Part shown: one piece after another, positions 5,026 to 32,429 of the stretch
Numbering within the stretch: position 1 is the stretch's first letter
Layout of the letters: each line of letters opens with the position of its first letter
Source: Deltaproteobacteria bacterium
Lineage (GTDB): Bacteria > Desulfobacterota > Desulfovibrionia > Desulfovibrionales > Desulfomicrobiaceae
Reading direction: 5' to 3'
Assembly: GCA_009930495.1 (NCBI GenBank)
Contig: RZYB01000012.1
Span: 1-32,597 of the forward strand
Length of the DNA stretch: 32,597 bases
Position numbers and translations under genes: made by a program
The notes under the pieces: model-generated
Databases searched by the model: none
What the model was told of the DNA's origin: nothing
Seen by the model: the letters and a program-made list of their open reading frames with translations, nothing else

Positions 5026-5649
5026 ATGCACGCACTCATCATTCTCGTGGCGTCCTATATCGCCCTGCAAATTTTTTCCGACATCGGCTCCCTGCGCATT
5101 GTCATGCTTGGCGGCATGTCCATTGACGCCGGGACCTTCATCTATCCCCTGACCTTCACTTTGCGCGACATGGTCCATAAGACCATGGGCAAACAGGGGG
5201 CGCGGCTGATGATTCTTACCGCCGCTGGCTTCAATCTGCTCATGGCCCTGTATTTCTGGCTGGTGGCCGCCTTGCCGGCGGACATGGGCGTGGGCGCGCA
5301 GCCGGAATTCGGACAAGTCTTGGCGCCCTTGTGGCGGCTGGTCTTCGCCTCCATCGTGGCCGAGGTCGTGGCCGAGATGACCGACACCGAGGTCTACAGC
5401 ATGTGGAAGGAACGGGTCACGACCCGACATCAATGGTCCCGCGTGCTGGTCAGCAACGCGGTCAGCATTCCCCTCGACAGCCTCATCTTCTGCTGGATCG
5501 CCTTTGGCGGCCTGTTCGACTCGGCCGTGGTCTGGTCGATTTTCCTGAGCAACACGCTGATCAAATTCGCGGCCACGCTCATCTCCCTGCCAGGAATCTA
5601 TCTGGTCAAGGAAAAGGACGGGCCGCAATCCTCGCCATCGAACTGCTAA
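5026..5649 (+). CDS. yhhQ: Queuosine-precursor transporter, YhhQ family (COG1738)
   Basis: Integral inner-membrane protein of 207 residues with about six hydrophobic segments. It matches the YhhQ family: short N-terminal helix, the GTFIYPLTFTLRDMVHK segment (about 36-52) and the loop AEMTDTEVYSMWK near 118-130. Family members take up queuosine precursors (preQ0/preQ1) for the tRNA anticodon modification. The ATG has a good ribosome-binding site (AAGGAG about eight bases upstream). It is separated by 99 bp from the thioesterase gene, and I could not recognise a preQ1 riboswitch in that leader. A strong terminator directly after the stop ends the unit. It may have its own promoter or be read through from the transporter operon. 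Confidence 0.88.
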   Translation: MHALIILVASYIALQIFSDIGSLRIVMLGGMSIDAGTFIYPLTFTLRDMVHKTMGKQGARLMILTAAGFNLLMALYFWLVAALPADMGVGAQPEFGQVLAPLWRLVFASIVAEVVAEMTDTEVYSMWKERVTTRHQWSRVLVSNAVSIPLDSLIFCWIAFGGLFDSAVVWSIFLSNTLIKFAATLISLPGIYLVKEKDGPQSSPSNC

Positions 5650-5680
5650 CGAAAAAGCCGGGTCATGCCCGGCTTTTTCG
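5650..5680. terminator. Bidirectional intrinsic terminator between yhhQ and the cinA-type gene
   Basis: A perfect 13-bp stem (5650-5662 with 5668-5680) has a five-base loop TCATG. The arms contain five A on the left and five T on the right, so it reads as a terminator in both directions and serves both convergent genes. Confidence 0.92.
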
Positions 5681-5682
5681 TT

Positions 5683-7492: not shown

Positions 7493-7525
7493 AACCCCCT
7501 GACGGTGTGCGCCGTCAGGGGGTTT
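7493..7525 (+). terminator. Intrinsic terminator after the 3D-domain gene
   Basis: AACCCCCTGACGG (7493-7505) pairs perfectly with CCGTCAGGGGGTT (7512-7524) across a six-base loop; only three T follow. It lies between convergent genes and probably serves both directions. Confidence 0.8.
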
Positions 7526-10091: not shown

Positions 10092-10751
10092 ATGGAAGAC
10101 AAAACTGGACAGATAGATATTTTAAAGACCATCGAACAGGAAATGGATTCGGACATCCATCCGTTTTTGAAAAAAATCCTGGACAACATCAAACCCCTTG
10201 CCTGGGCCGTGGGCGGGATCATCGCCGCCGCAGCCGTGTATTCCGGGGTGACCAGCTATCAGGAAGCCCAAAGAGCCAAGGCCGTCAGCCAGCTGGGCGG
10301 CATCCTCATCCAGACCGAATCAGCCGACCGGACCCAGCGGCTGGAAGAGTTCGCCGCCACCGCCCCGGCCGATCTGCGTGTCGCGGCCCGGTTGGAACTT
10401 GCCAAGGTTTACATGGACACCAAGGACTTCGACAAGGCAGCCAATGCCTGGAGGGCCGTGGGCGGCAGCGACGTGTCCGACATGCGCATTGTCGCCGGCC
10501 TGGGAGAGGCCAAAAGCTTCATGATGCAGGGCGAGCACGCCAAGGCCGCCGACCTGCTCGCCAATCTGAAACAAAACGCCAACGACGAATATCAGGCCAT
10601 GATTTCCGGCACCCTGGCCTTTGCCGCCGAAAAGGCTGGGCGCATCGACGTGGCCATCGCCGAGTACGAAGCCCTCAAGGCCAAGGGTGACAGCAATACC
10701 GCCTATCTCGACTACAAAATCGCCGCCCTCAAGGCAAAACCCCAAAGCTGA
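10092..10751 (+). CDS. YfgM-like membrane-anchored tetratricopeptide-repeat protein
   Basis: Protein of 219 residues: a cytoplasmic N-terminus of about 34 residues, one membrane segment (35-55, rich in Ala, Gly and Ile), then a helical domain of TPR-like repeats. Examples are LRVAARLELAKVYMDTKDFDKAANAW and IVAGLGEAKSFMMQGEHAKAADLL. This is the architecture of YfgM (TPR_21 family), a periplasm-facing protein that in E. coli contacts the SecYEG translocon and chaperones. That role here is family inference only. The ATG at 10092 has AAGGAG seven bases upstream. It is 101 bp ahead of the sigma-54 activator gene and may or may not share its transcript. Confidence 0.75.
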   Translation: MEDKTGQIDILKTIEQEMDSDIHPFLKKILDNIKPLAWAVGGIIAAAAVYSGVTSYQEAQRAKAVSQLGGILIQTESADRTQRLEEFAATAPADLRVAARLELAKVYMDTKDFDKAANAWRAVGGSDVSDMRIVAGLGEAKSFMMQGEHAKAADLLANLKQNANDEYQAMISGTLAFAAEKAGRIDVAIAEYEALKAKGDSNTAYLDYKIAALKAKPQS

Positions 10752-10852: not shown

Positions 10853-12421
10853 ATGACGAGCGACGAATTTCTGCATTTCCTGCACACGCTGCACCAGACA
10901 GTGCAAAACCTCGATCCGTTGAGCCCTCTTCAATCGAGTCTGGACAGTCTGCTCCAGACCACGGCCGATGCCATGCGCTACAAACGCATGGCCCTGGCCA
11001 TTTTCGATCCCAAAACAAACACCATCCGCTTCGATCTCACCCACGGACACAAGGGACCGGTCAAGGCCACCTATACTCCGGGCCAGGGGGTCACGGGTCA
11101 GGTCTTGGACACGGGCAAATCCATAATCATTGAGAAAATGGAGCGCGACGAGCGCTTTCTGAACAAGGCCATGGGGCGCACCCAAAAGGAACTGACCGAG
11201 TTGGCCTTCATCTGCGTGCCCATCAGCCGCATCGACGCCGACGGCAATCTGGAGGCCCTGGGCGTCCTGAGCGCGGACATTCCCTGCCAGCCCGCCGAGG
11301 TCTTGGCCATGCACTGCGCCTTTCTGGAGGTGCTGGCCTCGGTCATCGCCCGCCAAACCGCTTATCTGCAGGAAAACATGGCCCAGAAGGAACTGTGGGC
11401 ATCCATGGGCTTTCTGGGCGAGAACCTGGAGCGCGAAAAAGCCCTGGACCAGGCCAAGATCGTGGCCACGTCCAAGGCCATGGCCTTTGTCATGGGGCAG
11501 ATTCTGCAAGTCGCGTCCAGCAGGGCCTCGGTCCTGCTGCGCGGTGAGTCCGGCACGGGCAAGGAGCTGTTGGCCGAGAGCATCCACAACGCCAGCTCTC
11601 GGCGGTCCAAGCCCTTGGTGCGCTTGAACTGCGCGGCCCTGCCCTCGGAGCTCCTGGAAAGCGAGCTCTTCGGGCATGAGCGCGGAGCCTTCACCGGCGC
11701 GGTGGGCACCAAAAAAGGCCGGTTTGAACTGGCCCACACCGGCACCCTGTTTCTGGATGAAATCGGCGAGCTCAGCGCCGAAGCCCAGGCCAAGTTGCTG
11801 CGCGCCCTGCAGGAAGGGGAAATTCAACGTCTGGGCAGCGAAAAAACCATCAAGGTCGATGTGCGCATTATCTGCGCCACGCACCAGCCCTTGGAAAATC
11901 TGATCAAGTCCGGAAAATTCCGCGAGGATCTCTACTACCGGATCAACGTCTTTCCCATCTTCATCCCGCCCCTGCGCGAACGCCGGGAGGATATCCTGCC
12001 CCTGGCCGAATACTTCCTGGAATCCTTTGCCAAGGAATACGCCAAGAACATCAAGCGTATTTCCATGCCGGCCATAGACCTGCTGACCCAGTACCAATGG
12101 CCCGGCAACGTCCGCGAACTGCGTAACTGCATGGAGCGGGCGACCCTGATCTGCAACGAGGAAGCCATCAGGACCTATCACCTGCCGCCGACCCTGCAAA
12201 CGGCCGAAAGCTCGGCCACGGACACGCAGCTATCTTTTGGCGAGGCCGTGGGCAAATTCGAACAGGAAATCCTGGTCGAGGCGCTGCAACGCTGCGGTGG
12301 CAACATGCTCCAAGTAGCCAGGGATCTGCGCGCCAGCTACCGGATCATCAATTACAAGATCAAAAAATACAACATCGACCCCAAAAAATACGACGGACGC
12401 AACAAACCGCGCAAACCTTGA
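10853..12421 (+). CDS. GAF-domain sigma-54-dependent transcriptional activator (NifA/NorR-like layout)
   Basis: Protein of 522 residues with three parts. A GAF sensor domain spans about 20-170. A sigma-54 interaction AAA+ domain spans about 200-435, with Walker A GESGTGKE (231-238), the sigma-54 contact loop GAFTGA (278-283), Walker B TLFLDEIGE (298-306) and RLGSEK. A Fis-type helix-turn-helix lies at about 482-507 (GGNMLQVARDLRAS). It would bind upstream of -24/-12 promoters and open RNA polymerase-sigma-54 complexes by ATP hydrolysis; the GAF ligand is unknown. There is no receiver domain, so control by the adjacent kinases would have to be indirect. It precedes the kinase gene by 56 bp. 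Target promoters were not found in the window. Confidence 0.92.
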   Translation: MTSDEFLHFLHTLHQTVQNLDPLSPLQSSLDSLLQTTADAMRYKRMALAIFDPKTNTIRFDLTHGHKGPVKATYTPGQGVTGQVLDTGKSIIIEKMERDERFLNKAMGRTQKELTELAFICVPISRIDADGNLEALGVLSADIPCQPAEVLAMHCAFLEVLASVIARQTAYLQENMAQKELWASMGFLGENLEREKALDQAKIVATSKAMAFVMGQILQVASSRASVLLRGESGTGKELLAESIHNASSRRSKPLVRLNCAALPSELLESELFGHERGAFTGAVGTKKGRFELAHTGTLFLDEIGELSAEAQAKLLRALQEGEIQRLGSEKTIKVDVRIICATHQPLENLIKSGKFREDLYYRINVFPIFIPPLRERREDILPLAEYFLESFAKEYAKNIKRISMPAIDLLTQYQWPGNVRELRNCMERATLICNEEAIRTYHLPPTLQTAESSATDTQLSFGEAVGKFEQEILVEALQRCGGNMLQVARDLRASYRIINYKIKKYNIDPKKYDGRNKPRKP

Positions 12422-12432
12422 TTGCAGGACGC

Positions 12433-12480
12433 CATGGCCCGTGTTAGACAGAGACAAACCTCTTTCCAGGACGGGCCATG
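12433..12480 (+). promoter_or_regulatory. Inverted repeat covering the start codon of the sensor kinase gene
   Basis: CATGGCCCGT (12433-12442) and ACGGGCCATG (12471-12480) are perfect reverse complements with 28 bases between them. The right arm ends in the ATG start codon of the kinase. In mRNA, the hairpin would hide the start codon and the adjacent weak ribosome-binding site. An ATG inside the left arm opens a short frame that runs out of phase into the kinase gene. Confidence 0.5.
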
Positions 12481-13830
12481 CAACTCCTTGTTCCCGCGCG
12501 CAAACATCTCCGGGCCAGAATCCTCGAAAAAATTGGCGCCGATCACGCCGACGGCCCGACCTCGCCCGAAAAGGCCTTGCTTGTTTTTCTCGATCTGAGC
12601 CTGGAATACGAGGCTCTGCGGGAATTCAAATCCCTCTGTGTGCTGGTGCCCGAAGTCTGCCTGAAAACCCCGGCCTCCCTTTACCTGCAAAACCGCCACG
12701 GCGTCTTGCAGTTGCGGCGAACCACGAATTCACAGGGACCCAAGATCATTCATTTTCCCGAGCCTATCTGTCCGGCCGAGGCGCGGATGATCCAGCATGG
12801 CGACTTCCACGCCTTTCCCATCTGCGACCAGACGGTGCCAGACCCCTTGCTGGGCGTGTTTTGCGTGCACAAGCCCCTTTCCCCGGCGGAACAAACCTTC
12901 TTCGCCGAATACACCGAACGCGTCGCCCGGGTCATGAGCCTGAAACAAAGCGTGGTCAGTGGTCGGCAGCGGCTGACCTTCATCAATAATCTGGTCCGCG
13001 ATATCGGGCACAACATCATCGTGCCCAACATGCATTTCAAACTTCTGTTTCTGCGCATGGACAAAGCCCTGGCCGAATTGAGCCGCAGCATCGACAGTCT
13101 GGCCCCACCTCGGGGAGGCGCCCAGGACTCGGCCATCCGGCGCATGCTGCCCGATCAGGTCCGGGATCTGCGGAATCAGCTGACGGTCATCACCAAGCGC
13201 TTTCAACAGTCCAGCCTGTTTCTCGAAAGCCTGCTCCGCCGCGGCCATTTCGAAAAAGGACGCTATGACCTGGTGCTGCGCATGTGCAAATTCAAAAGCC
13301 AGATCCTGGAACCGCAGATGGAACGCTTCCGCTCCCTGCTCCAGGAACAAGGCGTGCGCATCGAAATCGCCCCGGATGTGCATATTGATCAGGAAATCAT
13401 CCTCCACGCCGATTTGGGCCTCTTGAGCCAGGTCGTGGCCAATCTGCTATCCAACGCGGTCAAGTATACCCAACCCGTGCAGACCCCGTCCGGGACCAGT
13501 CGCAAACGCCTGATTTATGGCTGGGACGTCGAACCCAGCGCATTCGGCCCGGACAAGGACGGCATCCGCATTTATATCGCGACCACGGGCAATCCCCTGC
13601 CCGCCGAGGACGCGGCCCGCCTGTTCGAGGCCGACTTCCGCTCGGCGGCCTCGGGACCAGCCGAAGGCACGGGCCATGGTCTGTTCTTCGTGCGGCAGAT
13701 CGTGGGACTCCACGGTGGTCGGGTCAAATACGAACACAACCAGCACATGAACATTTTTTCCATCGTGTTGCCGCACTCCGGCGCACCGGGCGATCCCGCG
13801 GAGATTCCGGCATGTCCCAAAGCATCCTGA
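12478..13830 (+). CDS. Soluble sensor histidine kinase with non-canonical H-box
   Basis: Protein of 450 residues with no membrane helix. A possible GAF-like sensor region (about 30-155) includes FHAFPICDQTVPDPLLGVFCVHK. The dimerisation helix contains NNLVRDIGHNIIVPN with candidate phospho-acceptor His178; the residue after His is Asn rather than the usual Glu or Asp. An unusually long stretch (about 200-250) separates the two helices. The ATPase domain has a good N-box NLLSNAVKYT (322-331) and GTGHGLFFVRQIV (397-409), but where DxGxG is expected it reads ATTGNPLP, so the Asp is missing. It overlaps the next gene by 19 bases. Translation may be controlled by the inverted repeat over its ATG. 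It probably phosphorylates, or works with, the receiver protein that follows. Confidence 0.82.
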   Translation: MQLLVPARKHLRARILEKIGADHADGPTSPEKALLVFLDLSLEYEALREFKSLCVLVPEVCLKTPASLYLQNRHGVLQLRRTTNSQGPKIIHFPEPICPAEARMIQHGDFHAFPICDQTVPDPLLGVFCVHKPLSPAEQTFFAEYTERVARVMSLKQSVVSGRQRLTFINNLVRDIGHNIIVPNMHFKLLFLRMDKALAELSRSIDSLAPPRGGAQDSAIRRMLPDQVRDLRNQLTVITKRFQQSSLFLESLLRRGHFEKGRYDLVLRMCKFKSQILEPQMERFRSLLQEQGVRIEIAPDVHIDQEIILHADLGLLSQVVANLLSNAVKYTQPVQTPSGTSRKRLIYGWDVEPSAFGPDKDGIRIYIATTGNPLPAEDAARLFEADFRSAASGPAEGTGHGLFFVRQIVGLHGGRVKYEHNQHMNIFSIVLPHSGAPGDPAEIPACPKAS

Positions 13831-15257
13831 TCATCGAAGACGACGCGGCGATACGCGCCAGCCTGGCTTCATGGCTGGAAGACGCGGGTTTTCGCAGCCT
13901 TCAGGCCGATTCTTCCGACGCGGGCATGGTGTTCTTCCGCCGGGACCAGCCCGACCTGGTGCTGCTTGATCTGGGCATTGGCGACGCCAACGGCATGGAC
14001 CTGCTCCGGGTCATGAAAAATGAACGCCCAGGCACGCCCGTCATCATCGTTTCCGGTCGCACCCACATCACCGACGCCATCGACGCCTTCAAGGCCGGAG
14101 CCTGGGATTACGTGACCAAGCCCATTGCGAGCATGGAGGTGTTCACCAACAGCCTGCGGAATTGCCTGGCCCAATCCCAGCTTCGGGCGCGGGTCCAGGA
14201 AACCCAGGAGCATCTTCAGGAACTGATTCAGAATCTGCCGGTGATCATCTTCATCATCAACCGATCCCTGGAATTCGAATTCCTGAATCAGACCACCGAG
14301 AGCATTCTGGGCTACCCGCCCGGCGAAATCATGGCCTCGCCCAAATCATTCCTCAAATACATTGTCCCCGAGGACCGCGCCCCGTTCCTGAATACCCTCA
14401 AACGCGCCTTCGAACCCGAAGCGGAGTCCTTCCGTTTGGAATTCAGATTCATGCACGCGAAAGGCTACCAGGTTTTCCTGCACGCGCAGTCCATTGCCCG
14501 CAATCCGGGCCACAAGGGCACGGCCGAACGGGTCGAGGGAATGATCCTGGACGTGACCCGTCATTCCTACATGGACAAAATTTTGCTCCAAAACGAAAAA
14601 CTGAACATGTTGCGGACCATGACCGAGGAGGTGGCCCATGAAATCCGCAATCCCCTGGTTTCCCTGGGTGGCTTCGCGCGCAAGCTACGCGGCCGCTTTC
14701 CGGACGCCATGGAAACCGGGGTCATCCTGGAGGAATGCAATCGCCTGGAACGCCTCATGCTCCGCATCAACGCCTATTTGGAACCCATCGAAGTCAACCT
14801 GACCGGATGTTCCATTCCGGCGACCCTGGCTTTCATCCTGCGCCTGCTTTCCCCCCGGCTGGAACGCCAGGGCATTGTCTGCGAAGTCCGGATTCCGGAG
14901 GATACGCCCAAAATCCACGCCGATCAGGAATTCCTCCACCGCATTTTCATGCACCTGATTTCACAGTCCACCGGGGTACTGACCACCAATGGCCACCTGG
15001 ACATCTCGGCGGCCGAATCCACGGACCTGGTGCATGTCACCCTGCTCCTTTCTCCGGTGCGGACCACCCTGCCCACCCAGGATCGTTTGCTCATGCCCTT
15101 CGAAGGCGGCGACACGCCCAACCTAGCCACCTGCTACCGACTGGTGGAACGGTTGCATGGGCATCTGCACGTGGAGCAGTCCGCCGATCAGGCCCGCGTC
15201 ACCATCACCTTTCTCAAATACCAGCACAAACTGCCCCAGTCCTTCGGATCAATCTGA
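13812..15257 (+). CDS. Receiver-PAS-HisKA protein with degenerate ATPase domain (likely pseudokinase)
   Basis: Protein of 481 residues. A receiver domain (1-120) has the acidic pair Glu9/Asp10/Asp11, phospho-acceptor Asp53 (DLVLLDLGI), the SGR switch region and Lys103. A linker helix and a PAS domain (about 135-250, LPVIIFIINRSLEFEFLNQ) follow. A HisKA helix carries the canonical VAHEIRNPL with His276. The C-terminal part has the length and trace of an ATPase domain (HADQEFLHRIFMHLISQS, then LVERLHGHLHV). However, it lacks the N-box Asn, any DxGxG and the glycine-rich lid, so ATP binding is doubtful. The start overlaps the previous gene, so the two are coupled. It may accept phosphate at Asp53 or at His276 from the partner kinase. 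Confidence 0.85.
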   Translation: MSQSILIIEDDAAIRASLASWLEDAGFRSLQADSSDAGMVFFRRDQPDLVLLDLGIGDANGMDLLRVMKNERPGTPVIIVSGRTHITDAIDAFKAGAWDYVTKPIASMEVFTNSLRNCLAQSQLRARVQETQEHLQELIQNLPVIIFIINRSLEFEFLNQTTESILGYPPGEIMASPKSFLKYIVPEDRAPFLNTLKRAFEPEAESFRLEFRFMHAKGYQVFLHAQSIARNPGHKGTAERVEGMILDVTRHSYMDKILLQNEKLNMLRTMTEEVAHEIRNPLVSLGGFARKLRGRFPDAMETGVILEECNRLERLMLRINAYLEPIEVNLTGCSIPATLAFILRLLSPRLERQGIVCEVRIPEDTPKIHADQEFLHRIFMHLISQSTGVLTTNGHLDISAAESTDLVHVTLLLSPVRTTLPTQDRLLMPFEGGDTPNLATCYRLVERLHGHLHVEQSADQARVTITFLKYQHKLPQSFGSI

Positions 15258-16885: not shown

Positions 16886-16922
16886 AAGCAGGGCGCGCTC
16901 CCCATGGGAGCGCGCCCTGCTT
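16886..16922. terminator. Intrinsic terminator between the UDPGP gene and the outer-membrane efflux gene
   Basis: A perfect 17-bp stem (16886-16902 with 16906-16922) has a three-base loop. On the plus strand it is followed by GTTTCG. It lies between convergent genes and can act in both directions. Confidence 0.85.
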
Positions 16923-22475: not shown

Positions 22476-24839
22476 ATGATGGCCCTGACACGAAAACTCC
22501 TGCGCGATCTCGCCGCCATGAAGGGTCAGATGACCGCCGTGGCCCTGGTCATGGCCTGCGGGTTGATGGTCATGATCATGTCCAAGGGCCTGGTCCGCTC
22601 CCTGGAAGCGGCCCGCGACGACTACTACGAACGCAACCGTCTGGCCGACGTATTCTGCGAGCTCAAACGCGCGCCCAACGCATTGGGCCGGGAGCTGGCC
22701 AAAATCCCCGGCGTGGCCTCCGTGGAAACACGGATCAAGGGCTCGCTGAGCCTGGACATGCCCGGCATGCGTTCCCCTGTCGACGGCGTCATCCTGTCCA
22801 TGCCCGATGACCGCCCGTGGCGCATCAACGTGCCGCATTTACGGCGTGGGCGCCTTCCCGAACCGGGACATGGATCGGAAGTCCTGATTTCCGAGGCCTT
22901 TGCCACGGCCCACGGTCTGCAACCGGGGCACACCCTTCAAGCGACCATATACGGCGCTCGCGCCACGTTGCGCATTGTCGGCACGGCCCTGTCCCCGGAA
23001 TTCGTCTACGAAACACGACCCGGCGAGACCGTGCCGGACAACCGGGGTTTCGGCATTTTCTGGATGAACGAACGCGCCCTGGCCCAGGCCTTCGGGCTGG
23101 AAGGAGCGTTCAACAGCGTCGTCGCGACCCTGGCCCCGGGAGGGACCACGGCCGCCGTCAAAGCGCGCCTGGACCTTCTTCTCGCGCCCCATGGCGGACG
23201 GGTGTCCTATGACCGCACGGAACACACCTCCTCAAAGCTCATTGATGACCGCATTGCCATCCTGCGCGGCTTTGCCCTGGCCTTTCCCGCCGTATTCCTG
23301 ACCATCGCGGCCTTCATGACCAGCGCGGCCCTGACACGATTGGTCCGGCTGCAGCGGGAACAGATCGCCCAGCTCAAGTCATTCGGATATTCCTCGGCGG
23401 CCGTGGGATGGCATTATGCCCAGTTCGCTCTGGCCGCCGTGCTTGCGGCAACAATCATCGGCACCGTGATCGGACTGTGGCTGGGGCATGAAATGGTCGT
23501 GCTATACCGACGTTTTTTCCAATTTCCGGAGCTCCTTTTCCGTCCGGATTGGACGGCGCTGGCCCTGGCCCTGGCAGCCAGCGCCGGCGCGGCGTTTCTC
23601 GGCGTGGTCGCGGCCGTGCTCCAGGCCGCCGGCCTGCCCCCGGCCGAGGCCATGCGTCCGGAAACACCACCCCGCTTCGGCCCATCCCTGTTGGAAAAAT
23701 CAGGGCTTACGCGTTTGCTTCCTCCCATGCCCCGGATGGTGCTGCGTAATCTGGAACGCAAACCCGGCCAGGCGCTGTTCACTGTTCTCGGCTTGTCCCT
23801 GGCCACGGCCATACCCATTCTGCCCGGCGCCATGGGTGACGGCATCGCGTATCTCATGGATTTCCAATGGACCCGGTCGCAACGCCAGGACATGACCATC
23901 AGCCTGATCGAACCGGCATCGCCCGCGGCCTTGCACGACCTGGCGCACCTGCCCGGTGTCCTCCATGCCGAACCGTTTCGGACAGTGCCGGCGCTCCTTG
24001 CCCACGGGCACCGGCATCGCCGGGTGGGCATTATCGGGATTGCGTCCGATGCGCGCCTGAACCGCCTTCTGGATGATCAGGGCCGCCCGGTGTCCCTGCC
24101 CAGTTCCGGACTGGTCCTCTCCGCAAAACTGGCCGAAGTGCTCGATCTGCGACCGGGAGATCAGACGCGGGTCGAAGTTCAGGAGGGAACACGGCCCCGT
24201 CTGACCACCGTCATGGTCGAAACCGTCACCGATTTTTCCGGCCTCGGCGCATACATGGATATCCGCGCCCTGAACCGCCTGATGGGCGAGGACCGAATCG
24301 TCAGCGGCGCGTATCTCGCCCTGGACACGGCGCGCACGGACGCATTCCTGGACCGGGCCAAGGAAGTCCCGGCCATCGCCAGCGTGGTTTCGACACAGGC
24401 CGCGCGAAAGAGCTTCGAGTCGGTCATGGGCAACATGATGGACATCGTGCGGTCCGTGTATTTCAGCTTCGCCGTCATCGTTTCGGCAGGCGTCGTCTAC
24501 AACAGCGCCCGCATCGCCCTGTCCGAGCGAACCCGCGATTTGGCCACGCTGCGCGTCCTTGGCTTTTCCCAGGCAGATGTCATCCTCATCCTCCTCGCGG
24601 AGCTGTCCGTGCTGACCCTCGCGGCCCTGGGACCGGGCCTTGTCATCGGGTCGGAGCTGGCCAGACTTCTCGTGCTGACAGCCAGCACCGAATCCGTTCG
24701 CATGCCCCTGGTCGTGACCGTCCATGCCCGGACCACGGCAGTGCTCATCGTGCTGCTGGCCTCTGTCGCATCCTTTGCGTTGGTGGCCCGCCGCGTGCAA
24801 CACCTCGACCTCCTCGGAGTCTTGAAGGCCAGAGAATGA
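22476..24839 (+). CDS. Large FtsX-type ABC permease with two FtsX domains
   Basis: About 787 residues, roughly twice the size of LolC/E. The layout is a first helix near 15-40, a periplasmic domain to about 255, three helices (about 260-385), a second first-helix near 425-450, a second periplasmic domain and three last helices (about 645-775). It ends HLDLLGVLKARE, a typical FtsX-family terminus. This double-unit form is seen in permeases for lipids or peptides where one chain replaces a dimer. The start is chosen at 22476, five bases after the ATPase stop with GGAG upstream. ATG 22455 would overlap the ATPase gene by 17 bases. The stop overlaps the adaptor start in ATGA. Confidence 0.9.
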   Translation: MMALTRKLLRDLAAMKGQMTAVALVMACGLMVMIMSKGLVRSLEAARDDYYERNRLADVFCELKRAPNALGRELAKIPGVASVETRIKGSLSLDMPGMRSPVDGVILSMPDDRPWRINVPHLRRGRLPEPGHGSEVLISEAFATAHGLQPGHTLQATIYGARATLRIVGTALSPEFVYETRPGETVPDNRGFGIFWMNERALAQAFGLEGAFNSVVATLAPGGTTAAVKARLDLLLAPHGGRVSYDRTEHTSSKLIDDRIAILRGFALAFPAVFLTIAAFMTSAALTRLVRLQREQIAQLKSFGYSSAAVGWHYAQFALAAVLAATIIGTVIGLWLGHEMVVLYRRFFQFPELLFRPDWTALALALAASAGAAFLGVVAAVLQAAGLPPAEAMRPETPPRFGPSLLEKSGLTRLLPPMPRMVLRNLERKPGQALFTVLGLSLATAIPILPGAMGDGIAYLMDFQWTRSQRQDMTISLIEPASPAALHDLAHLPGVLHAEPFRTVPALLAHGHRHRRVGIIGIASDARLNRLLDDQGRPVSLPSSGLVLSAKLAEVLDLRPGDQTRVEVQEGTRPRLTTVMVETVTDFSGLGAYMDIRALNRLMGEDRIVSGAYLALDTARTDAFLDRAKEVPAIASVVSTQAARKSFESVMGNMMDIVRSVYFSFAVIVSAGVVYNSARIALSERTRDLATLRVLGFSQADVILILLAELSVLTLAALGPGLVIGSELARLLVLTASTESVRMPLVVTVHARTTAVLIVLLASVASFALVARRVQHLDLLGVLKARE

Positions 24840-29636: not shown

Positions 29637-29663
29637 CGGCGCCGATGCCAGCCATCGGCGCCG
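29637..29663 (-). terminator. Stem-loop directly after the Fe-S subunit gene
   Basis: CGGCGCCGATG and CATCGGCGCCG form an 11-bp perfect stem with a five-base loop, starting seven bases after the stop codon. A run of eight T lies 14 bases further on, too far for a classical terminator by itself. It may protect the 3' end of the lctP-glcD-glcF message or act together with the next hairpin. Confidence 0.55.
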
Positions 29664-32386: not shown

Positions 32387-32429
32387 CGAAAAACGGTCCC
32401 GGAAGCCTTGCGCGAACCGCCGGGACCGT
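32387..32429 (-). terminator. Terminator-like hairpin between lctP and the FAD subunit gene
   Basis: Read on the minus strand, ACGGTCCCGG (32429-32420) pairs with CCGGGACCGT (32402-32393) across a 17-base loop and is followed by TTTTCG. It starts eight bases after the lctP stop. The long loop weakens it, so partial read-through is expected. Confidence 0.75.

Follow-up and report, generated by a model that had tools for sequence, protein, structure and literature searches.

The transposase gene of IS10 is subject to fold-back protection, in which the start is occluded on messengers reading in from outside, and the thermosensor of Yersinia lcrF is a hairpin over the ribosome-binding site. The closest systems described so far are gene e of phage T4 and I-TevI. 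According to the passages cited here, longer early messengers of gene e form an inhibitory structure and late promoters located just upstream give rise to shorter, well-translated messengers; the gene e promoter is encoded in the 5′ strand of the hairpin, and in relatives it likewise falls within the DNA for that strand (PMC3014915). Likewise, the cited passages on I-TevI describe a long messenger that is occluded and a late promoter that gives a shorter, translated one (PMC2988022). The passages cited for the IS200 transposase gene report a start that is occluded on messengers entering from outside (PMC3196728), and those cited for lcrF an intergenic RNA thermosensor that controls the synthesis of a regulator (PMC3280987).

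Here, we describe a putative element of this kind in a window of 32,597 nucleotides (the whole stretch of DNA that was analysed) from a deltaproteobacterium of the sulfate-reducer type (Desulfomicrobiaceae). A cis-repressing start hairpin is a known type of element, of which this would be a new instance; a search of titles and abstract openings, with most subscription journals outside its reach, found no publication on this kinase-start locus. As in the cited passages on gene e and I-TevI, a messenger initiated upstream (known there, proposed here) would fold over the ribosome-binding site or the start. In contrast with both, the locus belongs to a bacterial genome and holds regulator genes, and the place of the T4 late promoter would be taken by a sigma-70-like site that is weak in the window. 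IS10 and IS200 concern transposase genes of insertion sequences, whereas the neighbours in the window are regulators, and unlike the lcrF thermosensor the fold in the window is predicted not to melt in the physiological range. If the transcript start discussed below is confirmed, the element would work like gene e and I-TevI.

The genes around the hairpin all read on the forward strand. The upstream gene (P0002, 10853–12421) encodes a NifA-like sigma-54-dependent activator with GAF-like, AAA+ and Fis-type HTH parts, assigned by Pfam and NCBIfam (PF00158 with 1.8e-71, PF02954 with 2.8e-07; GAF_2 remains under its curated cut-off, and the NifA model of NCBIfam gives 466.1 bits, under its cut-off of 528.85). 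It is followed by a histidine kinase gene (P0001, 450 aa, 12478–13830; HATPase_c with 3.8e-14), the 3′ end of which is overlapped by the gene of a response regulator–PAS–HisKA protein (13812–15257, from a domain search).

Predicted fold at the kinase start

The segment CATGGCCCGT at 12433–12442 is the perfect reverse complement of ACGGGCCATG at 12471–12480, and the last bases of the latter are the ATG (12478–12480) of the 450-aa kinase frame. This confirms the 10-bp perfect inverted repeat, ending in the kinase start codon, to which the earlier note had drawn attention. In an inverted-repeat search the arms lengthen to 21 nt with 81% complementarity and 6 nt between them, giving a left arm at 12433–12453 and a right arm at 12460–12480 (both forward strand), the latter containing the Shine–Dalgarno (SD) sequence, the spacer and the ATG. 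What had been taken for a loop of 28 bases is not open; it is mostly paired and leaves an apical loop of 6 nt (12454–12459). RNA folding around the start, a check proposed beforehand, yielded −31.7 kcal/mol for 12415–12500 (z −3.7) with none of 200 shuffles equally stable, and for a slightly shorter stretch z was −3.9 with one of 200 shuffles as stable. The whole predicted structure (12424–12491, forward strand) includes a lower stem under the ATG, in which 12424–12432 pairs with bases between 12480 (the last base of the ATG) and 12491. By prediction the kinase ATG is fully paired and the SD motif AGGA (12468–12471, forward strand) partly paired, so that start codon and part of the SD lie in a stable fold as expected of a start-occluding hairpin. 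The SD itself scores 4 compared with 3–5 across all 26 gene calls of the window, which is not unusual and does not bear out its earlier description as a weak ribosome-binding site.

In total the window holds nine 10-bp perfect inverted repeats (loops 3–40) at seven distinct places, the expectation from 20 dinucleotide shuffles being 2.0 ± 1.1. The other places are 5648–5682, 7493–7524, 16886–16922, 23554–23586, 29637–29663 and 32393–32429, of which the first three occupy gaps between convergent genes and look terminator-like. For the repeat at the kinase start an intrinsic terminator was rejected, as a pattern scan of the window found none there on the forward strand.

The rarity of such a start was judged against 571 genes called heuristically on 20 stretches of the same genome, 19 stretches of the sister genome G009 and the window; 568 of their starts were used and three dropped for short flanks or N. 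Opening cost was defined as the energy needed to open −15..+3 within −60..+20. With 26.0 kcal/mol the kinase start (12478) ranks first among the 568 (mean 7.4, sd 3.3; next 21.7), and in a longer context (−100..+60) it requires 19.7 compared with a mean of 7.9 (sd 3.2). Two of the 568 starts, the window kinase included, possess a perfect stem of 10 in −18..+3. Further strongly buried starts among those called are L065:10812-11816 (21.7 kcal/mol), L083:5173-5928 on the reverse strand (21.3) and L066:4471-5712 (19.0, with a 9-bp perfect stem).

Occurrence and pairing within the genus

A kinase homologue was found in 15 of the 16 genus genomes searched and the activator, at E 1e-170 or better, in 12 of the 16; in all 12 genomes with both genes the activator stop is located 56–65 bases ahead of the kinase start. 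Opening the kinase start costs at least 10.3 kcal/mol in 12 of the 15 homologues, a value that 16.2% of the 568 background starts also reach (6.7% reach 12.7). The window with 26.0 is followed by G010 (19.9), G002 (18.0), G015 (15.6), G001 (14.9), G014 (14.6), G013 (14.1), G009 (13.6), G007 (13.5), G003 (13.2), G006 (12.7) and G012 (10.3). The exceptions are G005 (7.8) and G011 (7.7) with ordinary kinase starts, and G008 (3.7), in which activator and kinase are both there and the fold is absent. In the longer context some relatives come near the background (G013 8.5 and G012 8.7 vs. its mean of 7.9). Compared with shuffles, the leader reaches a z of −2 or lower in six of the 12 activator-bearing species (window, G009, G015, G002, G001 and G014). 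The leaders of G003, G012 and G007 are no stabler than their shuffles (z 0.1, −0.3 and −0.6), and part of the opening cost in these species is therefore due to base composition; the value for G008 is also about zero. The kinase of G001 shows a 13-bp perfect stem that ends right before the ATG, a length found in none of the 568 background starts.

In three genomes that contain the kinase (G010, G005 and G011; L016, L013 and L014) the activator search gave no match at E 1e-170. The kinase of G010 is directly preceded by a homologue (42% identity) of the 219-aa protein that the window carries at 10092–10751, and the frame upstream of the kinase in G005 resembles the same protein by eye. The kinase ATG of G010 is immediately preceded by the right arm of a strong hairpin that is unrelated (L034:2930-3015, the same place as L016; −34 kcal/mol with z −2.0, a stability equalled by 7 of 200 shuffles). 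Its stem of 11 bp, with two G–U pairs as counted by eye, ends right before the ATG and has an unrelated sequence. An in-frame TAG seen in three kinase matches was dismissed, being merely the ordinary stop at codon 431 or 436.

Outside the genus 16 homologues were scored (L017–L031 and L035), three weaker full-length matches without locus being left out. The ATG candidates of the 16, taken as putative starts, cost 1.3–7.6 kcal/mol in 15 of them and 11.0 in L030, while values up to 14.0 occur among GTG or TTG candidates, which are less likely starts. Homologues that keep the protein start and lose the complementarity, which the earlier note had named as evidence against the hairpin, do exist, namely three of 15 in the genus and 15 of 16 outside, and the start hairpin is therefore a lineage-specific feature.

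The correspondence between the arms was analyzed by pairing the left segment of every species with the right segment of every species (12 species). In nine of them the own pairing is better than both foreign-pairing means, the remaining ones being G006, G003 and G008. For a permutation test eight close groups were formed with one representative each, and G006, G003 and G008 were retained; in all 12 choices of representatives the true pairing falls within the best 0.15–0.65% of 40,320 orders (exact p 0.0015–0.0065). In both five-species sets (window, G009, G006 and G001 together with either G002 or G013) the true pairing is the best of 120 orders. Control segments at +4..+33 and +34..+63 gave p 0.60 and p 0.022, respectively. 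Since the latter value means that relatedness or composition can inflate the test, the excess was compared with 60 offset controls along the coding sequence, and none of these reaches it in any of the three species sets. The lower stem under the ATG was rejected as a coevolving element because the partner test gave it no support (p 0.25).

In an alignment of seven species (A2) with the structure taken from G001, 79.7% of the cells pair vs. 23–42% when the structure is slid, and six of 17 pairs are changed on both sides, including three of the four in the apical stem. Of 500 shuffles of this alignment 20 reached the covariation score, 26 the number of changed pairs, 51 that of changed cells and 52 that of pair types. 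RNAalifold finds the same main and apical stems again, and its covariation term of +0.23 lends no support. Column-wise covariation is modest because the window and G001 pair in different registers in the lower part, the register of the window being its own. Conservation of the pairing in relatives, as the earlier note had envisaged it, is supported: many members of the genus have arms that have changed and match nonetheless, and 12 of the 15 genus starts are costly. Three of the 15 are without a costly start, and G006, G003 and G008 taken singly are exceptions to the pairing through changed letters.

An initiation-occluding hairpin at the kinase start is supported as a predicted structure, best for the window and six relatives. 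The proposal that it could block initiation is supported by the first rank in opening cost and by the matching arms in many members of the genus, and we consider it probable that the hairpin represses kinase translation in the cell.

Possible routes to a free start codon

We suggest that a messenger reading through from the sigma-54 activator gene, itself a presumed species, would fold back at the kinase gene and bury its start codon together with the spacer, and that the kinase would hardly be translated from this RNA. A shorter transcript would begin inside the hairpin, with the −35 to −10 stretch of its promoter overlapping the left arm. On such an RNA, which lacks the left arm, the kinase start would be freer, and kinase synthesis would be uncoupled from read-through out of the activator gene. 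The account as a whole has about even chances in our judgement; release by an internal transcript start is the way out that we favour, if tentatively.

The first 32 bases from the activator stop align to each other without gaps in 11 of 12 species. Right after this stop lies TTGCAG (12422–12427), a putative −35-like hexamer, and 17 bases after it TAGACA (12445–12450), weak in the window, occupies the place where relatives have −10-like TATGNN. From this spacing a transcript would start approximately at 12457–12459, in the apical loop (all forward strand). Sites were rated by E. coli frequencies. With these, the sigma-70-like site TTGCRG-17-TANRNT (TATGNN; TAAGAT in G003) outscores every other within 120 nt in nine of 12 species, where it reaches 8.0–10.5, and scores 4.8 in the window (second best), 2.4 in G001 (third) and −2.1 in G008 (not there). 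For the best site ahead of each background gene the median score is 5.2, with the 90th percentile at about 10; on that scale 8.0–10.5 falls between about the 75th and 95th percentile and is good, not exceptional. Pairing with the start region (RNAalifold consensus) could also explain why TTGCA is conserved, although G008, where the fold is absent, retains TTGC too. A sigma-54 site in the leader was also considered and dropped, the GG-N10-GC spacing fitting, by eye among 12 species, G009, G015 and G006 only.

When the RNA is modelled to begin near the loop, about 7 bases past the −10, the opening cost drops from 12.7–26.0 to 2.5–7.3 kcal/mol in seven species, i.e. to 2.5–5.2 in six of them and to 7.3 in the window (9.6 once further downstream sequence is included). 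These values are close to the opening cost of 6.1 for background leaders of 23 nt. G003, G012, G007 and G014 gain little from the shorter RNA (10.3–14.6 to 7.5–11.0).

Alternatively, there may be one long messenger on which the hairpin represses kinase translation until a protein, a small RNA or a ligand acts in trans to open it. The costly start in 12 of 15 genus homologues agrees with this, as does G010, which has its 11-bp stem before the kinase ATG in spite of lacking the activator gene, and a transcript begun inside the hairpin would fail to free the ATG of four species. The arm sequences, however, differ widely among species, a poor fit to one protein or small RNA, and no Rfam 15 family matches in the window at gathering score; we regard opening in trans as unlikely. 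The earlier note had thought of upstream ribosomes, and translational coupling, in which the hairpin is opened by ribosomes translating either the activator gene or a left-arm frame, would suit both the distance of 56–65 bases in the 12 genomes with activator and kinase and the ATG at the −10-like place common to nine of 12 species. RNA trimmed to a ribosome parked at the upstream stop has its cost reduced from 13.6 to 8.4 in G009, from 15.6 to 6.4 in G015 and from 14.9 to 8.8 in G001, but in the window, with the RNA begun 12 bases after the upstream stop, only from 26.0 to 24.0; the effect is weak in the window and larger in these relatives. The left-arm ATG (12434), once proposed to couple translation, opens an out-of-phase frame of 54 codons (12434–12598, forward strand) that is probably not translated. 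It occurs in the window only among 12 species, and its absence from all 11 aligned relatives led to its rejection as a coupling frame. Nine other species share an ATG 12 bases beyond its position, which either gives frames of 3, 37 or 48 codons or runs on in phase into the kinase. Taken together, coupling appears quite improbable.

The dyad also covers the promoter-like site with its centre near the expected start point, a position that would suit an operator in the DNA of a kinase promoter, bound by a dimeric regulator, the RNA fold then being incidental. Half-sites that differ between species and several pairs kept as G–U, which would break a DNA dyad, speak against it; a recurring operator was rejected because the half-site pair shows no clear excess in the genome (five places vs. 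four for the reversed control), and we hold an operator to be very unlikely. The paired start codon is what an RNA thermosensor would require, and opening by temperature had been among the earlier suggestions; the predicted cost is, however, still 12.4 kcal/mol at 75 °C with the main stem unchanged. A thermosensor was rejected on this predicted failure to melt in the physiological range and is barely conceivable. Finally, the repeat may be due to chance, or the intergenic hairpin may serve stability or processing and take no part in initiation. In favour of this, G008, G005 and G011 do without, several relatives fold no better than shuffles, and the species are few and related. Such a reading accounts poorly for the first rank of the window start among 568 and for partner-specific pairing that no offset control reaches, and is given little probability here.

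Possible meaning for the regulatory locus

With release by an internal transcript start as the favoured route, it is possible, though doubtful, that the principle of T4 gene e operates at a chromosomal regulatory locus. The kinase promoter would then itself form the 5′ strand of the start-burying hairpin, the origin of the messenger and not a ligand would decide on kinase synthesis, and the sequences would drift while promoter and complementarity stay together. In the passages cited above a comparable device is described in a phage and an insertion sequence. Members of the genus differ naturally in having or lacking the fold and make up a small set of variants, in which G008 represents a natural loss. 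If the account is true, translation would be the level at which the second regulator is shielded from read-through out of the first.
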